64,000 bases of DNA from Oleiharenicola lentus. Lineage in GTDB: Bacteria > Verrucomicrobiota > Verrucomicrobiia > Opitutales > Opitutaceae. Of this stretch, positions 479 to 22,580 are shown piece by piece (the stretch's first letter is position 1; each line of letters starts with the position of its first letter). The notes beneath the pieces are model-generated. The model was not told the DNA's origin. It worked only from the letters and a program-made list of their open reading frames with translations, and did no database searches. The stretch spans positions 981,001 through 1,045,000 of the forward strand of contig NZ_SDHX01000002.1 in assembly GCF_004118375.1 (NCBI RefSeq), given 5' to 3'. Position numbers and translations under genes: made by a program.

Positions 479-1450
479 GAGACCTATCTTTTCCGTGACG
501 CCACCTCCGAGCACATGAAAGCCAACCGCAACACTCTCGACGTGCGGACCAACACGCAACCGAAACGGCTTCGGGCAACCGCCAACAGCGAGGAGATAAT
601 CTCTTCCACGATGAATGCCACTAACCGCCCGTGCGCCCTCGTGATCGTTAAGAGCAACCGCTGGGTGCTGCCGGTCCAGCTTCACCAGAGCCCTCTCTTC
701 CCTGCCGCCGCACACTCCACGCATGAGTCGCTCCTGCGCACTCATGTGGCCGGCGCCACCACTGTGACCCGAAAGCGCCAGCAACCGAAGGGCTTCGGAC
801 GACGGGCGGAGGAGGAGACCTATCTTTTCCGTGACGCCATCCCCCAACACATGAACGCCACCCACAACAACCGCAGCACACGGACCCTCTCCCAACCGAA
901 CCCGATTCGGGCGAGCGCCAGCCGCGAGGAGATAATCTCTTCCACTATGAACGCCACCACCCGCCCCAACGCCACCGTGATCAACGAGAGCAACCGCTGG
1001 GTGCGGCCAGTCCCCTTCACCCCGGTGGGTGACCACTTCACGTATGCGTCGCCCGTGGGCACCCATGCGATTGTTGCCAATACGGACGCGCAAAAGCGCT
1101 CGCAACCGAAGCCCTTCGGACAACGGGCAGTGTGGGAGACCTATCTTTTCCGTGACGCCACCCTCCAACACATGAACGCCACCCAAAACAACTGCAGCTC
1201 ACGGAACTCCTCCCAACCGAACCCGATTCGGGCGAGCGCCAGCCGCGAGGAGATAATCTCTTCCACAATGAACGCCATCACCCGCCCCAGCGCCACCGTG
1301 ATCGTAGAGAGCCACCGGCATGAGCTGCCGTTCCACCTTCACCTAGCCACGTGGGTCTGCCCGGTCGCCCTGTTCGACCAGATGACGATCGTGCGCTGCG
1401 GGAAGATGATCGTCGCCACGACCAAGAGCGCATCACCGAAGCGGCTTCGG
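479..1450. repeat. Three imperfect ~320-336 bp repeat units with paired palindromes
   Basis: Block A (starts gagacctatcttttccgtg) occurs at 479, 815 and 1136. Block C (gcgaggagataatctcttcc) occurs at 588, 924 and 1245. Offsets are therefore 336 and 321 bp. Each unit has two hairpin cores of the form ccgaa-n4/5-ttcgg: 560-574 and 785-798, 896-910 and 1106-1119, 1217-1231 and 1436-1450. The motif atgaacgcca recurs after both A and C, so each unit looks like two related half-units. Units 2 and 3 match without gaps for about 180 bp, yet differences show no third-codon-position bias on either strand, which argues for non-coding DNA. The last hairpin lies 64 bp before the tnsAB start. Function unknown; a structured RNA, protein-binding array or decayed gene family are possibilities. 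Confidence 0.7.
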
Positions 1451-1514
1451 ACAACGAAGTGAAGGCGAGTCCATCTATTCATTACCACCAGGAAACACGA
1501 ACTCCTCCCCGAAC

Positions 1515-4223
1515 ATGAAAAACCTCTCCTCCATTCGTCGCAGCAGCACCGCCCTGCTCCGCTGGGCCGCCGGCGCCAAGCTCACCGACCGCGGCACGAC
1601 CTTCTGGACAAAAGTCCCCACCTCCCGGCCCGTCCGCCGCACTCAGGGGCGCCGCTGCGTCCGCGGCTCCTACCCGAGCCAGAAGATGGGGGTGACCATC
1701 CAGTTTGAGGCTCACCGGACTGAGCTGATGCTGATCCACCACCTCGAGAACGACCACAGTGTCATCGAATACTACGACCAGCCGGTCACCCTGAAGCTCG
1801 TCTATCTCGATGCCGATGGCCGCAAGGTCGGCTGCTTCACCACCCCTGATTTTGCCGTCGCCGAAGCGGAGTGCGCCTACTTCGTGGAGGCCAAGACAGA
1901 GGAGGACCTGCGGAAGCTCGCAGAGGAAAAGCCCAACCGCTACGTGCGCCAGCAGGATGGTTCGTGGCGCTGCCCCCCGGGCGAGGAGGCCGCGGCCGGA
2001 TTCGGGATGGGCTACCGGATCGTGGTCGCTGACCTCCTGAGTTCGGAGCTCACCCGCAACATCATCTACCTGGAGGACTATAGCCGGCGGAACTGCCCCG
2101 CCCCGGCGCCGAAGCTGGTGACGAAGGTGCTGGAAACCGTGAAGGACAACCAGGGCATCACCTACCCGGCGCTACTCGCAGAGCTGAGGTCGGAGGGGCT
2201 CTGCGCCGACGACCTCAATAACATGATCTACCGAGGAACTGTCTATGTCGATCTGCGGGCAGTGCTGCTCATTGACCACGAGAGCGTGAGGATTTTTTCG
2301 GACCAGACTACGGCTGTCGCGAACGAGGCGATCGAAAAAGCCAAAGCCCTGCCTGCCACGGGCACTGAGGGGCCGGTCCACTTTGTCCCCACCGCCAAGG
2401 TCCGGTGGAAAGGCACCAATCACACCATCACGCACGTGGATGACCAGATCGTCCATCTCATGCAGGATGGCGACGGCAAGCTCACCCCCGTGAAGCGTAT
2501 CGACCTGGAGCTTGATGTCTTCGCAGGCAAGGCGACCGGGATTGTATCGGAACATACCCGGGAGCAGGCAGCGGCAGACAAGATCGCCACCGCGGGACCC
2601 GCACGCCTGCAAGAAGCCGTCAATCGCTGGCAGACCATTCAACCTTATCTGGAGGACCGTCGGCGGCTGAAGCGTGCGCCCAAACGGAAACGTCGCACCT
2701 TTAGCCGCTGGATCGAGGACTACCGTGAGGCGCAGGATTCGTTCGGAAACGGATTTGTCGGGCTGCTGCCTGAGATTCGCGATGGACGCGCCGGCAGCCA
2801 TCTCGATGAGGCGGTCGACGAGCTGATGATCAAGATCATCAAGGAATACTTTGAAACGAACGTCAGCCCCACGATCTCCGATGCTTATGGAAAGTTGCTG
2901 GTGGCCTGCCAAGAACAGGACTTAGGGGCCCCGAGCCTGAAGACATTTGGTCGGCGCGTCCGTCTGCGCCCGCAATACGAGCAGACCCGCAAGCGCAAGG
3001 GTGGCCGACCGGCGACTCAACGTGCCAAGTTTTACTTCTTCCTGGACCAGACCACCCCGGTCCACGGAGACCGGCCCTTCGAGATCGCTCACATCGATCA
3101 TACTGAATTGGACCTGGAACTGGTCTGCCCCCGAACCGGGAAGAATCTCGGACGCCCTTGGTTGACGCTCATGATCGATGCGCGGACCCGTCGCATCCTC
3201 GCCACGCACGTTTCGCTCTTCGCCGAGAACACCGAGTCGTGCATGATGGTCATGCGGGAATGCGTCCGGAGGCATCACCGGCTGCCCCAAACCCTGGTGG
3301 TCGATAACGGCAAAGGGTTCAACAGCCTCTACTTCGAGGTGCTGCTCGCGAACTTCGGGATCACCAAAAAGTCACGCCCGGCGGGACACCCGCGCTTCGG
3401 GTCGGTCTGCGAGCGCATCTTCGGCACCATTAACACCCAGTTCATCCACAACCTCCGCGGCAACACCAAGCTGATGAAAAATGTTCGTCAGGTGTCCAAG
3501 GAGTTCAATCCGAAGACCCTGGCCGCGTGGGCGCTGGAGGAGCTCGACGACCGCATGAAGTTTTACTGCCACGAGGTTTACGACACCAACGAGCATTCGT
3601 CCCTCGGGCGCAGCCCCCGGGACGAGATGGCTGCGATCATCGAGGCCACCGGCCGACGCCAGCACACGTTCATTCCCTATAACTTTCTGTTTCAGGTCCT
3701 CACGTTGCCATCAACCAAGAGCGGCGTGGCCAAGGTCCATGCCCAGAAGGGAGTTCACATCAACTATCTCGACTACTGGAACAGCGCCTTCACCGATCCC
3801 AAGCTGGAGGGCACGCAAGTGCCCGTGCGCTACGACCCGTGGGACTCGTCCGTCGCCTACGCTTTTGTCCATGGTGCCTGGCTCCCGTGCATTTCGAGTC
3901 ATGCGATGCTGTTCAAGAACTATAGCCAGAGGGCACTGAAGCTGGCCGCGGAGGAATACCGGGCCAGGCGCAAGAAAAGTGGCCAGAACAAAAACGTAAC
4001 GGCACTCCGGCTCGCCAAGTTCATGGCGGAGGTGAAGGAGGAGGAAACCTTCCTCATCCTTCGCGCCAAGGAGGTTGCCAGCCGCGGCGATGCGCAGCTC
4101 GTCGACGAACAGACGAAGCCGCAGGACCAGCAGCCCAAGGATCCGCCCGTCGCCGATCAGGGACAGCCGGAGGAACCCGCTGACCAGGAAACCGAACAGG
4201 AATTTGAGATCGTGAACGAATAA
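1515..4223 (+). CDS. TnsA-TnsB fusion transposase
   Basis: This 902-residue protein joins both strand-cutting activities of a Tn7-like transposase. Residues ~60-135 match the TnsA endonuclease: E65 and E70 in FEAHRTE, D112 in TTPDF and the EAK motif at 125-127. The middle and C-terminal parts form a TnsB/Mu-type DDE integrase, with the first Asp in HIDHTELD (~525), the second in VVDNGKGF (~596) and the Glu in SVCERIFG (~632), all intact. TnsA is known to cut the 5' ends and TnsB the 3' ends and to join them to target DNA. The first ~45 residues are basic and not clearly conserved, so the start could lie slightly downstream. tnsC follows after 8 bp. Both active sites look complete. Confidence 0.93.
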   Translation: MKNLSSIRRSSTALLRWAAGAKLTDRGTTFWTKVPTSRPVRRTQGRRCVRGSYPSQKMGVTIQFEAHRTELMLIHHLENDHSVIEYYDQPVTLKLVYLDADGRKVGCFTTPDFAVAEAECAYFVEAKTEEDLRKLAEEKPNRYVRQQDGSWRCPPGEEAAAGFGMGYRIVVADLLSSELTRNIIYLEDYSRRNCPAPAPKLVTKVLETVKDNQGITYPALLAELRSEGLCADDLNNMIYRGTVYVDLRAVLLIDHESVRIFSDQTTAVANEAIEKAKALPATGTEGPVHFVPTAKVRWKGTNHTITHVDDQIVHLMQDGDGKLTPVKRIDLELDVFAGKATGIVSEHTREQAAADKIATAGPARLQEAVNRWQTIQPYLEDRRRLKRAPKRKRRTFSRWIEDYREAQDSFGNGFVGLLPEIRDGRAGSHLDEAVDELMIKIIKEYFETNVSPTISDAYGKLLVACQEQDLGAPSLKTFGRRVRLRPQYEQTRKRKGGRPATQRAKFYFFLDQTTPVHGDRPFEIAHIDHTELDLELVCPRTGKNLGRPWLTLMIDARTRRILATHVSLFAENTESCMMVMRECVRRHHRLPQTLVVDNGKGFNSLYFEVLLANFGITKKSRPAGHPRFGSVCERIFGTINTQFIHNLRGNTKLMKNVRQVSKEFNPKTLAAWALEELDDRMKFYCHEVYDTNEHSSLGRSPRDEMAAIIEATGRRQHTFIPYNFLFQVLTLPSTKSGVAKVHAQKGVHINYLDYWNSAFTDPKLEGTQVPVRYDPWDSSVAYAFVHGAWLPCISSHAMLFKNYSQRALKLAAEEYRARRKKSGQNKNVTALRLAKFMAEVKEEETFLILRAKEVASRGDAQLVDEQTKPQDQQPKDPPVADQGQPEEPADQETEQEFEIVNE

Positions 4224-4231
4224 TCACTCCT

Positions 4232-5392
4232 ATGCAAAACCCAGACCACATCCGCGCCGCCCAGAAAGCAAAGGCGGCACTCGACAACTCGCTGGTGAAA
4301 CACACCCGCTTTGACGAGGCCCTGAAAACGATCGAAGCAGCCCTCCTGTTCCCCACGGACACCCGGTTGCTTTGGGTGATCGGACCCAGCGGAGCGGGGA
4401 AAACCCGTCTCGCCCAGACCGTTGAAAAGTTGATCCACAAGATCGTCGCCGACAAGCTCGTGAGCGATCCCGGCTGCGTTCCCTGCGTCAGCTTCGAGGT
4501 GCCGTGCCCCGAGCTGGGTCATCGGTTCAGCTGGAATGAGCACCACTGGCGGTATCTCGACAAGTTGCAGTCGCCCCTCTCCCCGGATGGCGCAAACTGG
4601 CCGCCCCTGCCGCGGGTCGATCCGAAGCGCGGTCTGGAGCATGCCGTCCTCAATGCCCTGCACTACCGGAATCCCTTGGGGGTCCTCCTTGACGAGACCA
4701 ATCACTTTGCGTCGGTAACCAGCGGCAAGGTGTTGTTCGACCAGACCAACCGCCTGAAGAGTTTCGCGAACCGGTCAAGGGTGCTGCACATTTGCTTCGG
4801 CACCTACGAGGTCGCTCAGATGGCATCCATTTCCGGGCAGCTGGCGCGGCGCAGCGACATCATCCACCTCTCGCGTTACCGGGCCGATGTCACAGCGGAC
4901 TACGCGGCATTCAAGTCCGTGGTCCGCGCCTTCCAGAAGTGCCTTCCGGTGGTGCATCACCTCGATCTGCGCACGCAAACGGAGTATCTGCACGAACGCT
5001 CCATCGGGCTGGTCGGTGTGCTTAAGGGGTGGCTCATCAAGGCCCTGGCGCACGCCAACGGCGACGGGCGGAGCGCAATTACGATGAAGGACCTGGAGGC
5101 CACGGCCATGCCCGTCAACAAACTGCGCCTGCTGCTCCATGAGGCCACGGAGGGAGAGCATATCATGAACGATGGCGAGACTCAGCTCGATCTCTTCCGG
5201 AAGGACTTGGGGCTGGGGGGCAAGCCCCCTCGCAGCAGGGATGGGACGGGTGACCTTTTCGGCTCGCAGGATGGTGAACCTGAACCCGCTGAGAAGACTC
5301 CTTTCTCCAAGGCCAAACCATTTGAGCTCGCCCCCGAGCGCTTGCCGGTCGGTGGGGCATTCGACGGTAGCGTCGGGGCACTCGCGGGGTGA
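4232..5392 (+). CDS. tnsC: TnsC/TniB-like AAA+ ATPase of the transposon
   Basis: This 386-residue regulator presumably links target choice by TniQ to the TnsAB transposase, as TnsC does in Tn7. Walker A is GPSGAGKTR near residues 51-59 and Walker B is in GVLLDE near 150. A sensor-type region and a predicted helical C-terminal tail follow. The start ATG is 8 bp after the tnsAB stop, and tniQ begins 7 bp after its own stop, so the three genes are almost certainly one transcript. The last ~70 residues, rich in Pro, Gly and charged residues, look disordered and may contact partners. The ATPase motifs appear intact. Confidence 0.9.
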   Translation: MQNPDHIRAAQKAKAALDNSLVKHTRFDEALKTIEAALLFPTDTRLLWVIGPSGAGKTRLAQTVEKLIHKIVADKLVSDPGCVPCVSFEVPCPELGHRFSWNEHHWRYLDKLQSPLSPDGANWPPLPRVDPKRGLEHAVLNALHYRNPLGVLLDETNHFASVTSGKVLFDQTNRLKSFANRSRVLHICFGTYEVAQMASISGQLARRSDIIHLSRYRADVTADYAAFKSVVRAFQKCLPVVHHLDLRTQTEYLHERSIGLVGVLKGWLIKALAHANGDGRSAITMKDLEATAMPVNKLRLLLHEATEGEHIMNDGETQLDLFRKDLGLGGKPPRSRDGTGDLFGSQDGEPEPAEKTPFSKAKPFELAPERLPVGGAFDGSVGALAG

Positions 5393-5399
5393 CCGGACG

Positions 5400-6707
5400 A
5401 TGACAGCCAACATACAGACACCGCCGCGCAGCACTCTGTTCAGAGTGCTGCCGCAGGGCCTCGCAACCGGTCGGATCGAAAGTCTCACGAGCTACGTCAC
5501 CCGGCTGGCTGCCGCTCACCTTGTCACCCCCCTGACGCTCTTGCGCCGCGGGCTCGCCTGGTGGGACGAAGGGAACCCAAACCGGGTGGGCGAATGGGGT
5601 CGGCAGCGACCCAGTTTACGACTCAGCAACTGCATCAACGCGCACGCTTCCGGCGAGCGCTGGTGCCGCTTGCTTGAGCGACTGACCTGCATCGAAGACC
5701 TGTCGTCATGCACGATGCGGGCATGGGCGGACTTGTTCCCATCCCGCGGGCTCCTGCGCGACTATCTCGCTTGGTGCCCGGCTTGTCTGGCGGAACAAAC
5801 CGAACCATACGATCCCCTGCTTTTCTGTATCCAGGAAATCAAAGCATGCAGTCGTCATCGGTGCCGGCTGGTCGAACGGTGCCCTCACTGCGGGAGCGAG
5901 GTGCCGGTGCTTCACGCGCGCTCCGCGCCCGGGGCCTGCCCCAAATGCAAGATGCCCCGCCATGCCGCGGGGCTGCACCTGAAGATCGCGCCGGAGGAGG
6001 AAGTGCAGGTCGCGCTCCTGGCGGAAGATTTCCTATTAGCGACGGCGACCAACCGCCGGCGTCAATGGAGGCGCACCTGCGAGGTGGCAGAAGTGCTGCA
6101 GAGGTGCGTGACCGCCGCGGACGTGCCAGACGCCGCTGCCCTTGGCCGCGTGGTCAATGTCAGCCGGATCACCGCATGGGGCTGGCTCAACGGCAAATCG
6201 GCCCCGGATTTCTCGTTCACGCTGCGCCTCTGTCACTGCTTTGGCCTGAGCGTGGAGGACTTCCTGAGTGGTCGCATCCCGTCGACGCTCGTGCTTCGCG
6301 TCTGGGAGGAGCTGCCGATCCGTCCAACTCGGCGCCGCCCCGGCCGTCATGATGACATCGGTTTGGCGCAGGCTGTTGTGCGTTACTGCGAAAAGCGAAC
6401 GCAGCGGCCACCCAGTCTGGCTGAGGTCGCGGAGGCCGTGAGTGTCTCGCCGCGCGTGCTGCGCAAACGATTTCCGGCGCTGTGCAACGACATCAGCAGC
6501 CGTTGGCGCGAGTTCGTTCGGACGCGGCGGATCGCCCGCGAGGAAGAGCTGCGCCGGACGATCCGCGATGTCGCGCTGCGAGAGAAAATCAAGCGCGGCA
6601 GAATCCGGAGGTGCGACTTGATCAAACTGCTGCCCAAGCCGGGCGTCCTGCGTAGCGCCGCCACCCGCGACCTGGTCAAACAAACCCTGCTGGATCTGGA
6701 GAACTGA
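5400..6707 (+). CDS. tniQ: TniQ/TnsD family target-selection protein
   Basis: This 435-residue protein starts at the ATG overlapping the end of the tnsC region. The N-terminus has the family signature (RVLPQGL, then ESLTSYVTRLAAAH). A zinc-ribbon region follows, with CPAC, CSRHRC, CPHCG and CPKC cysteine/histidine groups at about residues 127-185. A helix-turn-helix-like segment (WLNGKSAPDFSFTLRLCHCF) lies near 265-285, and a second basic helical region is near the C-terminus. Such length and the extra DNA-binding parts fit a TnsD-like protein that recognises a fixed attachment site, rather than the short TniQ of CRISPR-associated transposons. That functional reading is an inference. Confidence 0.88.
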   Translation: MTANIQTPPRSTLFRVLPQGLATGRIESLTSYVTRLAAAHLVTPLTLLRRGLAWWDEGNPNRVGEWGRQRPSLRLSNCINAHASGERWCRLLERLTCIEDLSSCTMRAWADLFPSRGLLRDYLAWCPACLAEQTEPYDPLLFCIQEIKACSRHRCRLVERCPHCGSEVPVLHARSAPGACPKCKMPRHAAGLHLKIAPEEEVQVALLAEDFLLATATNRRRQWRRTCEVAEVLQRCVTAADVPDAAALGRVVNVSRITAWGWLNGKSAPDFSFTLRLCHCFGLSVEDFLSGRIPSTLVLRVWEELPIRPTRRRPGRHDDIGLAQAVVRYCEKRTQRPPSLAEVAEAVSVSPRVLRKRFPALCNDISSRWREFVRTRRIAREEELRRTIRDVALREKIKRGRIRRCDLIKLLPKPGVLRSAATRDLVKQTLLDLEN

Positions 6708-8649: not shown

Positions 8650-8889
8650 TGCCATCTAGGGAACACGGCACCGGATCTCGATTCCCTCCCTTATCTCGTG
8701 TTGACACACCTGAGGGTTGGTAGCGCTGGAGGATACCGCTCGGTAGACAGTTAGCGGTGCGGGCGTTTCTGGCATCGATAATCAACAAACAACGGCCTGA
8801 CCCCGTCCGACTTACACAATCCCGGCCCGTCCTACGACATCAATTTGGCCCGGCACATTTAGGGCAAGCCCAGCCTGACCCCGTCCGAC
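8650..8889. other. Intergenic stretch, left edge of inverted-repeat island
   Basis: No gene is seen on either strand. The stretch contains the 32-bp left inverted repeat (8779-8810). It also has two direct copies of a 20-bp word (cctgaccccgtccgacttac) at 8796-8815 and 8874-8893. Confidence 0.6.
8779..8810 (+). repeat. Left 32-bp inverted repeat of nested island
   Basis: This 32-bp word, which includes caaacaacggcctgacccc, is perfectly inverted at 10706-10737. Its inner half is repeated directly at 8874-8893. The two copies bound a ~1.96 kb stretch with lower GC than its surroundings, which suggests a small nested mobile or recombined segment. No transposase lies inside. Confidence 0.8.
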
Positions 8890-9381
8890 TTACCTCTTCG
8901 GCTTGGCCCTGGCTCCGCCCTTCCAAAGTTGATTCAAAATGCCAATGCTCGGCCTTGCTAATCCGCGGCTGAGATTTGCCCATTCCGGATTGATTTCCGA
9001 GAAAGTCGTTTGGGCAAGCTTCACGATAAAAAAATCCTCGAAGCCCAAAGCTATTGACGGGAATTGCTCTCCTCCAGACATCTCCAAATGACGGATTTCC
9101 CTCCCCCGAGACAATTCGCATCGGTAAATATTCCAAATTAGATGACGATTCGTTCTGATTCCCAGTTTGAATTTTCGGAAATCATGGTGCGGAAACTTCC
9201 ATGTGAAATCTCGAACTCCTACAAATTGTAGCATCCAAAGACTCCGCTTCTCATTCTGCATAATATGATCTGACAATACGTAGATGTTCACTCCGCTGTC
9301 CCATTCAGCAAAGTCGACATCTACGAGATAGGCGTCTGAGAGGATAACCTTTAGCAACTTTGTTTTTTTTGCGGCGTTCAT
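8890..9381 (-). CDS. Putative immunity protein paired with toxin fragment
   Basis: A 163-residue protein without recognisable family. It is rich in aromatic and charged residues and lacks signal or membrane segments. Its ATG overlaps the stop of the upstream toxin-like gene by four bases, the arrangement usual for polymorphic toxin-immunity pairs. Base composition is lower in GC than the chromosome. The immunity role is inferred only from position, size and coupling. Confidence 0.55.
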   Translation of the reverse strand: MNAAKKTKLLKVILSDAYLVDVDFAEWDSGVNIYVLSDHIMQNEKRSLWMLQFVGVRDFTWKFPHHDFRKFKLGIRTNRHLIWNIYRCELSRGREIRHLEMSGGEQFPSIALGFEDFFIVKLAQTTFSEINPEWANLSRGLARPSIGILNQLWKGGARAKPKR

Positions 9382-9881
9382 TTCTTTGCCGGGATGTGAC
9401 CGGCATTCGACGACGAGTCAACCGGATGCCCGTTTCGATCAAAACCTTGTCCGGAGGAATCATAGATATGCCAATGTGGCTTTTGATTTCCAACCAATGC
9501 GTCTCCTGAATCGTAGACAACCGTTGCCCCTGTGCGCGGATGCCGAAAAACCTTACGCCCTGTCGATGTCGTTTCAACGAGTTTGAAACCGGCTGCTTCA
9601 AGTGCTTTTCGCCCCGAGTTGTAACTCGCACCGTGCAAAGTGACTTCTCTCAGGCCCAATCTGCGCAGTTGCTGTAAGCCTTTTAGTGAAACGCTTCCTC
9701 GACGAGCACTACCATTTATTGCAGATTTCCCGCGCGTGGCCTCACGCGAGACTGCTGCGTCCATCGCGGCATCTCCCATTTTTAGTCCTGCGTTTACGAG
9801 TGCTTCAAGTCGATCGGTCCATTCCACGCCCATTGACTCAGCCATTTCCTCCAGTGCGATGCGCCTAATCCCGGCCCCCAC
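9378..9881 (-). CDS. Polymorphic-toxin C-terminal fragment (putative)
   Basis: The 167-residue frame has an Ala/Arg-rich N-terminal part and a compact C-terminal domain. That domain contains the run RKVFRHPRTGATVVYDSG followed by KPHWHIYDSSG and DRNGHPVD. Such tips, with a conserved PHWHIYD-like motif, resemble C-terminal domains of bacterial contact or secreted toxins. The large delivery portion (RHS or similar) is absent, so this is probably an orphan toxin module left by recombination. Downstream sits a coupled immunity-like gene. I cannot name the toxin family with certainty. Confidence 0.5.
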   Translation of the reverse strand: MGAGIRRIALEEMAESMGVEWTDRLEALVNAGLKMGDAAMDAAVSREATRGKSAINGSARRGSVSLKGLQQLRRLGLREVTLHGASYNSGRKALEAAGFKLVETTSTGRKVFRHPRTGATVVYDSGDALVGNQKPHWHIYDSSGQGFDRNGHPVDSSSNAGHIPAKK

Positions 9882-9973
9882 GAAATGGGCTCAACGATAA
9901 TGAGGCCTAGTGATTTTACCGGTCTGCCGTCCGAATGGTGGAAAAATTAACCTGAACATATCGTCTGCCGCAC

Positions 9974-10705: not shown

Positions 10706-10737
10706 TCGGACGGGGTCAGGCCGTTGTTTGTTGATTA
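10706..10737 (-). repeat. Right 32-bp inverted repeat of nested island
   Basis: Exact reverse complement of 8779-8810. It closes the ~1.96 kb segment containing the toxin-like pair and the exported protein. Confidence 0.8.
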
Positions 10738-10797: not shown

Positions 10798-10928
10798 CAA
10801 CTCATCGTTCCCAAATGTGATTTTGGACAACTTGTGGTTCCCTCAGCCTGTTTGATTAAAAACGGGCCCGCTCGGAGCACATGCGCAACTTGTGGTTCCC
10901 GTCAGCGCGATTTGTGGTCACATCGACA
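10798..10928 (-). repeat. Putative transposon right end with four TnsB-like sites
   Basis: The 15-bp word caacttgtggttccc is exact at 10828-10842 and 10886-10900. A 12/15 match lies at 10798-10812 (caactcatcgttccc), and a weaker one (cgatttgtggtcac) at about 10908-10921. Read from the chromosome side the end begins TGTCGATG, consistent with the terminal TGT of Tn7-like elements. Spacings of 30, 58 and ~22 bp resemble an asymmetrical transposase-binding array. Binding is inferred. Confidence 0.6.
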
Positions 10929-10943
10929 AGAATGTGTCGGGGC

Positions 10944-19697: not shown

Positions 19698-22580
<2,883 letters not shown>

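Follow-up and report, generated by a model that had tools for sequence, protein, structure and literature searches.

On balance, the three large tandem repeats found upstream of the tnsAB gene of Oleiharenicola lentus appear to be the repeated interior of a protein-coding open reading frame (ORF) on the plus strand, which lies just upstream of tnsAB within a Tn7-like transposon inserted downstream of a tRNA-Val gene. The array is best read as an orphan ORF with internal repeats, whether alive or decaying, rather than as a new RNA or a binding array. Positions given below refer to the window, that is, the whole stretch of 64,000 nucleotides that was analysed, unless a contig or another locus is named.

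The original prediction described three large palindrome-bearing units leading into a Tn7-like transposase gene, and such an array is present, with the following parts:

479 to 814, plus strand: repeat unit 1, 336 bases
815 to 1135, plus strand: repeat unit 2, 321 bases
1136 to 1435, plus strand: repeat unit 3, ending at the closing palindrome
479 to 503, plus strand: block A of unit 1, a 25-base invariant run that reads ETYLFRDA, with identical copies at 815-839 and 1136-1160
588 to 609, plus strand: block B of unit 1, a 22-base invariant run that reads EEIISST, with copies at 924-945 and 1245-1266
560 to 574: palindrome CCGAA-N5-TTCGG
785 to 798: palindrome CCGAA-N4-TTCGG
896 to 910: palindrome CCGAA-N5-TTCGG
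1106 to 1119: palindrome CCGAA-N4-TTCGG
1217 to 1231: palindrome CCGAA-N5-TTCGG
1436 to 1514, plus strand: closing palindrome (1436-1450), followed by a weak, degenerate further A half-unit that reaches the tnsAB start codon

The copies of block A start at 479, 815 and 1136, spaced by 336 and 321 bases and then by 331 bases to a degenerate block at 1467. Exact copies of blocks A and B are present three times each, and a match with up to three mismatches was found in none of 100 shuffles. Perfect CCGAA-N4/5-TTCGG palindromes number six in 479-1455 and 14 in the whole 4.7-Mb genome, those six included, and when the array was shuffled by mononucleotides, any such site arose in 4 of 2000 trials. 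A palindrome would also be expected ahead of unit 1, but the sequence there (447-463) is degenerate. Counted from the block start, an in-frame ATG comes after 36 bases in A halves and after 21 bases in B halves. Over its final third, unit 3 aligns poorly with units 1 and 2. As predicted, the array stops 64 bases ahead of tnsAB, ending at 1450 with the tnsAB ATG at 1515. The degenerate A half-unit in this gap is the best non-self match of an A-half nhmmer model in 79 kb (1438-1515, E 0.05); local alignments made without the palindrome are not significant, given that 54, 132 and 170 of 1000 shuffles equal the scores against A1, A2 and A0.

The element that carries the array is a Tn7-like transposon of 20,707 bp, with TGTCGA ends and the target duplication AGAAT on both sides. 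Its left end is at contig position 971222 (L003 5222), 9.8 kb to the left of the window start, and begins 28 bases after a tRNA-Val at 5117-5193 of L003. The left terminus, TGTCGAGGGAACCACG, is directly preceded by AGAAT; the right terminus, at 10928 of the window, matches it in inverted orientation (...CATCGACA) and is followed by AGAAT at 10929-10933. Given these two end positions, the window begins within the element. The ends were recognised by eye and then verified by script; a blind scan for inverted ends returned only GC-rich noise among the best 25 listed. The features of the element within the window are as follows:

1515 to 4223, plus strand: tnsAB fusion transposase gene (Pfam matches to TnsA N, rve, Mu C-terminal and Mu HTH)
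4232 to 5392, plus strand: tnsC, a TniB-type AAA ATPase (Pfam)
5400 to 6707, plus strand: tniQ/tnsD-type target selector, start approximate (Pfam TniQ, 1.4e-13, on the longer mechanical ORF 5172-6707)
10799 to 10928, minus strand: transposon right end, with GGGAACCACAAGTT-type sites at 10799, 10829 and 10887 and the terminus ...CATCGACA at 10928

The assignment to the Tn7-like group is borne out by the Pfam matches to a TnsAB fusion, a TniB-type TnsC and TniQ, and the element shows the genes for TnsA/TnsB, TnsC and TniQ/TnsD, TGT...ACA ends with a 5-bp duplication, and insertion adjacent to a tRNA. Its cargo includes Avs3a and Avs3b on the left side and a PDC-S10 phosphoesterase after tniQ. 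The putative transposase sites of the right end are of the GGGAACCACAAGTT type, two exact and one with three mismatches, and the left end has two such sites, each with three mismatches, one in each orientation. These five end sites are the only GGGAACCACAAGTT-type matches with up to three mismatches in the whole element. Two further observations concern the same DNA. A 31-base stretch that starts AATCAACAAACAACGGCC near 8780 has an inverted copy near 10706-10736, as seen by eye, and this pair may bound a smaller nested mobile unit with two small minus-strand ORFs at 8890-9881. On the minus strand at 1-287, a divergent ORF has a proline run, an A/K-rich C-terminus and a weak coding signal; it gave no Pfam match and one NCBIfam match far below the cut-off.

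With the ends mapped, it is next to inconceivable that the array is itself a transposon end, in the form of an array of TnsB-binding sites. The array does stand just before tnsAB, and block A, compared by eye, loosely resembles the end sites of cyanobacterial relatives, a likeness from which a TnsB-site array was first favoured before the mapping of the true ends led to its rejection. Those ends, however, are elsewhere and have a different repeated motif as well as the target duplication, and the block A and B cores, searched with up to two mismatches outside the array in the 64-kb window and 35 kb upstream, match once (B, at 22074, outside the element). The array lies between the cargo and tnsAB, far from either end, and is therefore not a TnsB-bound end; the earlier suggestion of a binding array thus finds no support for transposase sites at the level of the ends.

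The candidate coding sequence that holds the array is this one:

515 to 1462, plus strand: candidate coding sequence of 315 amino acids, counted from the first ATG inside unit 1

Its start is ambiguous, with an alternative in-frame ATG at 284 that would give 392 amino acids, and no clear start codon or ribosome site was found. Within 479-1459, the frame starting at 479 has no stop codon, as compared with 17 and 8 in the other two plus-strand frames. In a neutral simulation, 7-10% of runs keep the frame free of stops, a share that rises to 43-46% when the changes are confined to the sites that actually changed; by itself, the open frame is weak coding evidence. The composition of the frame is gene-like, with GC of 0.555, 0.512 and 0.793 at codon positions 1, 2 and 3, where the third-position GC of tnsAB is 0.794. 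Scored for codon usage with 26 ORFs from 11001-64000 as the training set, the plus-strand frame of each of the three units exceeds the best of six frames in all 2000 of 2000 dinucleotide shuffles. In 150-base sliding windows starting at 422-1322, the array frame outscores the other five in 15 of 16, and the signal fades past the stop at 1462. The codon score of the array, 0.056, is close to the 25th percentile (0.04) of 300-base windows across the whole window. The codon adaptation index (CAI) of 479-1459 is 0.591, set against 0.618 for tnsAB, 0.575 for tnsC and 0.536 for tniQ, and 58 wrong-frame readings of 29 genes reach at most 0.554, with a mean of 0.331; the array is below the gene median of 0.717. 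Codon adaptation is low in block B (2.5th-10th percentile) and ordinary in block A (22nd). Successive palindromes start 225, 111, 210, 111 and 219 bases apart, and each of these steps is divisible by three, like the unit lengths of 336 and 321. Two structure models, covering a unit and the whole ORF, are poor, with mean pLDDT of 45 and 34, and a Foldseek search with the model of a unit gave nothing under E 0.9. A frame continuous from the array into tnsAB was considered and rejected: the array and tnsAB are read in different frames, and the stretch 1452-1514, taken in that of tnsAB, does not look like a gene (1019 of 5000 shuffles score as well).

The original prediction stated that the repeats are conserved at the nucleotide level with no codon-position bias. 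This holds for substitutions, which over the alignable 205 bases fall on codon positions 1, 2 and 3 as 14/17/15, 15/17/16 and 9/11/7 in the three comparisons of units; it does not hold for composition, given the GC values above. The further step, from even substitutions to a non-coding array, finds no support, even though the coding scores are modest for a gene. The dN/dS ratios between units are 0.80, 0.95 and 1.44 over 204 alignable bases; with these ratios and the even spread over codon positions, protein-level constraint is not seen, and the purifying selection expected of a protein gene is not evident. The changed positions have a GC content of 48% at third positions, 40% at first and 38% at second, so that the changes wear down the coding signature. 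The candidate ORF may therefore be dying, or it may be under diversifying selection. Among the readings offered at the outset, decayed genes come nearest, in that a coding signature is present; the frame, though, is still open.

For such an ORF, the likely history would begin with an ancestral segment of two related half-repeats; unequal recombination or slippage presumably turned it into three in-frame copies, which would later have diverged. The ORF, upstream of tnsAB, would encode an accessory protein of the element that is translated now or was until recently, and its present evolution would be under relaxed or diversifying selection. The palindromes and blocks would then be either inherited duplicate sequence or carriers of a second function at the DNA level.

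Such a function is central to a possible, though clearly less probable, alternative, in which the array is a cis-acting leader or operator for tnsAB: each palindrome-block-ATG module would be a DNA or RNA element to which a regulator or ribosomes bind, and the last of these modules, which is degenerate, would run into the start codon of tnsAB. Conservation at the DNA level is consistent with this. In the alignment of units, 146 of 200 columns are invariant, and the two longest invariant runs, of 25 and 22 bases, are jointly rare under a site shuffle (p 0.00045) or a codon shuffle (p 0.0024), although the test weakens with blocks of 6 bases (p 0.0057) or 10 bases (p 0.038). The right arm of the palindrome is kept even though its reading frame differs between A and B halves, and the distance from palindrome start to block is constant at 30 bases in five of six cases, with 31 in the closing copy. 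Together with the codons of block B and the match of the A-half model, which extends to the tnsAB ATG, the conserved runs and the kept arm keep the leader-array reading alive. The gene-like codon choice, however, would need another cause, the copy nearest to tnsAB is the least conserved, no sigma-70-like promoter was found in 200-1700, and a folding signal is absent from seven of eight stretches. It is unlikely, as a third arrangement, that the DNA carries a double code, with start-like modules (palindrome, conserved block and in-frame ATGAACGCC) nested in a coding frame that stops just short of the tnsAB start, such that copy number tunes expression of the transposase.

The folding results bear more directly on the proposal, also made at the outset, that the repeats are a family of small structured RNAs, which is highly improbable. 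Short palindromes and GA-rich/CU-rich hairpins can form, and one half-unit (447-560) folds with a z-score of -2.79 against shuffles. Eight stretches were folded in this way, one of them a unit and seven of them half-unit stretches, and the z-scores of the remaining seven range from -0.90 to +0.47; the whole array was folded without shuffles. Nothing in the window matches Rfam at its cut-offs, and the sole sub-threshold match in 300-1600 scores 19.8 bits against a cut-off of 80 (E 0.74). The proposal is thus not supported by either approach.

Relatives of the array were sought at the levels of DNA, pattern, protein and profile, and no credible relative of the repeats or of the ORF was found in the collections searched. 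In its own genome, the array occurs at a single place. The 25-base block pattern, allowing up to three mismatches, matches only its own genome among 252 genomes of the family, and a profile of the units matches only its own genome among 384 genomes of the class. DNA searches gave single short matches in G022 (among 57 genomes) and in G513 and G588 (among the 252 genomes). The last two were taken as chance, being inside open reading frames of other genes, and the G022 match was likewise taken as chance, as judged by eye. A protein search of 387 genomes of the phylum gave four weak matches, two of them with in-frame stops, which were dismissed as compositional without closer inspection. The array was not found in viral contigs, DNA searches of plasmids and phages returned nothing, and a protein search of plasmids returned one match, at E 0.6. 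Among the matches listed in a literature search, none described a tandem repeat upstream of tnsA in Tn7, which is not proof of absence.

The original prediction had named the absence of the array beside close tnsAB homologues as evidence against itself. The array is indeed absent beside the closest homologue found, in genome G453 of the same family, where the region before tnsAB has neither repeats nor similarity to the array; at 47% identity, however, that homologue is not very close. In G453, the left end of the element (TGTCGA) lies about 27 bases downstream of a tRNA-like sequence ending in CCA, and the element also has a divergent ORF with a winged-helix match under the Pfam cut-off. At about 9600-9900 of the G453 locus (L035), the tRNA-like sequence is seemingly split by roughly 200 bases, as judged by eye; ARAGORN and Rfam call nothing at this locus. 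When 14 regions upstream of related tnsAB genes were compared with themselves, 12 had no self-match at E 1e-3; L012 (206 bases upstream) and L016 (690 bases) were left out of this comparison. The two regions with self-matches, L018 with CRISPR repeats and that of G216 with TnsA-like ORFs, are both unlike the array, and short, chance-like repeats occur in some of the upstream regions. The L018 repeats, at 5100-5720, resemble a CRISPR array by eye and immediately precede the left end of a TnsAB element from a cyanobacterium, an arrangement like that of a CAST.

The G216 element (L027 10018-11311) has ORFs of 183, 175 and 59 amino acids in tandem before tnsAB, all of which start like that tnsAB; the two longer ones have no Pfam match, and their likeness to TnsA past the start was judged by eye. 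It is like the window in having tandem repeats directly upstream of tnsAB and in belonging to the same bacterial order, and it differs in that its copies match the start of their own tnsAB, which the array of the window does not beyond a weak score. As a distant element of the same order, G216 shows that tandem copies of the tnsAB start occur. It is nonetheless very doubtful that the array likewise goes back to the TnsA-coding start of tnsAB, copied in tandem and since decayed. A profile of the TnsAB N-terminus does score best in the plus-strand frame, at 5.3-6.3 bits, which 8 and 4 of 3000 residue shuffles equal. The best-scoring stretch, however, falls in unit 3, the consensus unit reaches only 1.1-1.3 bits, three profile-profile comparisons with hhalign give probabilities of 0.5-0.6% and E of 0.10-0.12, and the likeness was spotted by eye prior to testing. 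A TnsA origin is borderline in the first of these tests and unsupported in the other two.

The preferred reading, a repeated ORF beside tnsAB, can be placed among described elements. In the part of the literature consulted, Tn7-like transposons are described as carrying defence cargo along with genes of unknown function and as inserting downstream of tRNAs, with Verrucomicrobia among their uncommon hosts (PMC8649781). The element of the window similarly combines defence cargo, an orphan ORF and a tRNA-adjacent insertion; it differs from the cargo ORFs described there in that its orphan ORF stands directly ahead of tnsAB, with cargo on one side and tns genes on the other, and contains three in-frame repeats. 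Among CRISPR-associated transposons, CyCAST homes 30-33 nt after a tRNA, and a tRNA-Val target plasmid is named for PmcCAST, according to the portion of that report consulted (PMC10293859). With the I-B2 and I-D types of CAST covered there, the element shares a TnsAB fusion, TnsC, a TniQ/TnsD-type protein and insertion after a tRNA, at 28 bases here. It differs in that no Cas gene is among the genes of the element that were examined, and a repeat-bearing ORF before tnsAB is not mentioned for those types in that portion (PMC10293859). A MerR-type repressor, CvkR, is reported to adjoin CAST genes and to control the element (PMC9938897). The candidate ORF also adjoins transposase genes; unlike CvkR, the ORF of the array is matched by no regulator family.

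After this analysis, a conspicuous array no longer counts as a likely new RNA and has its place in a defined element whose ends are mapped. The case also illustrates that even changes over codon positions do not, taken alone, exclude a coding origin. Were the double code to prove true, the array would be a leader gene, expandable in tandem, for the transposase of a Tn7-like element. If the candidate ORF is translated, an unstudied protein is encoded beside the transposase of a Tn7-like transposon that carries defence genes.
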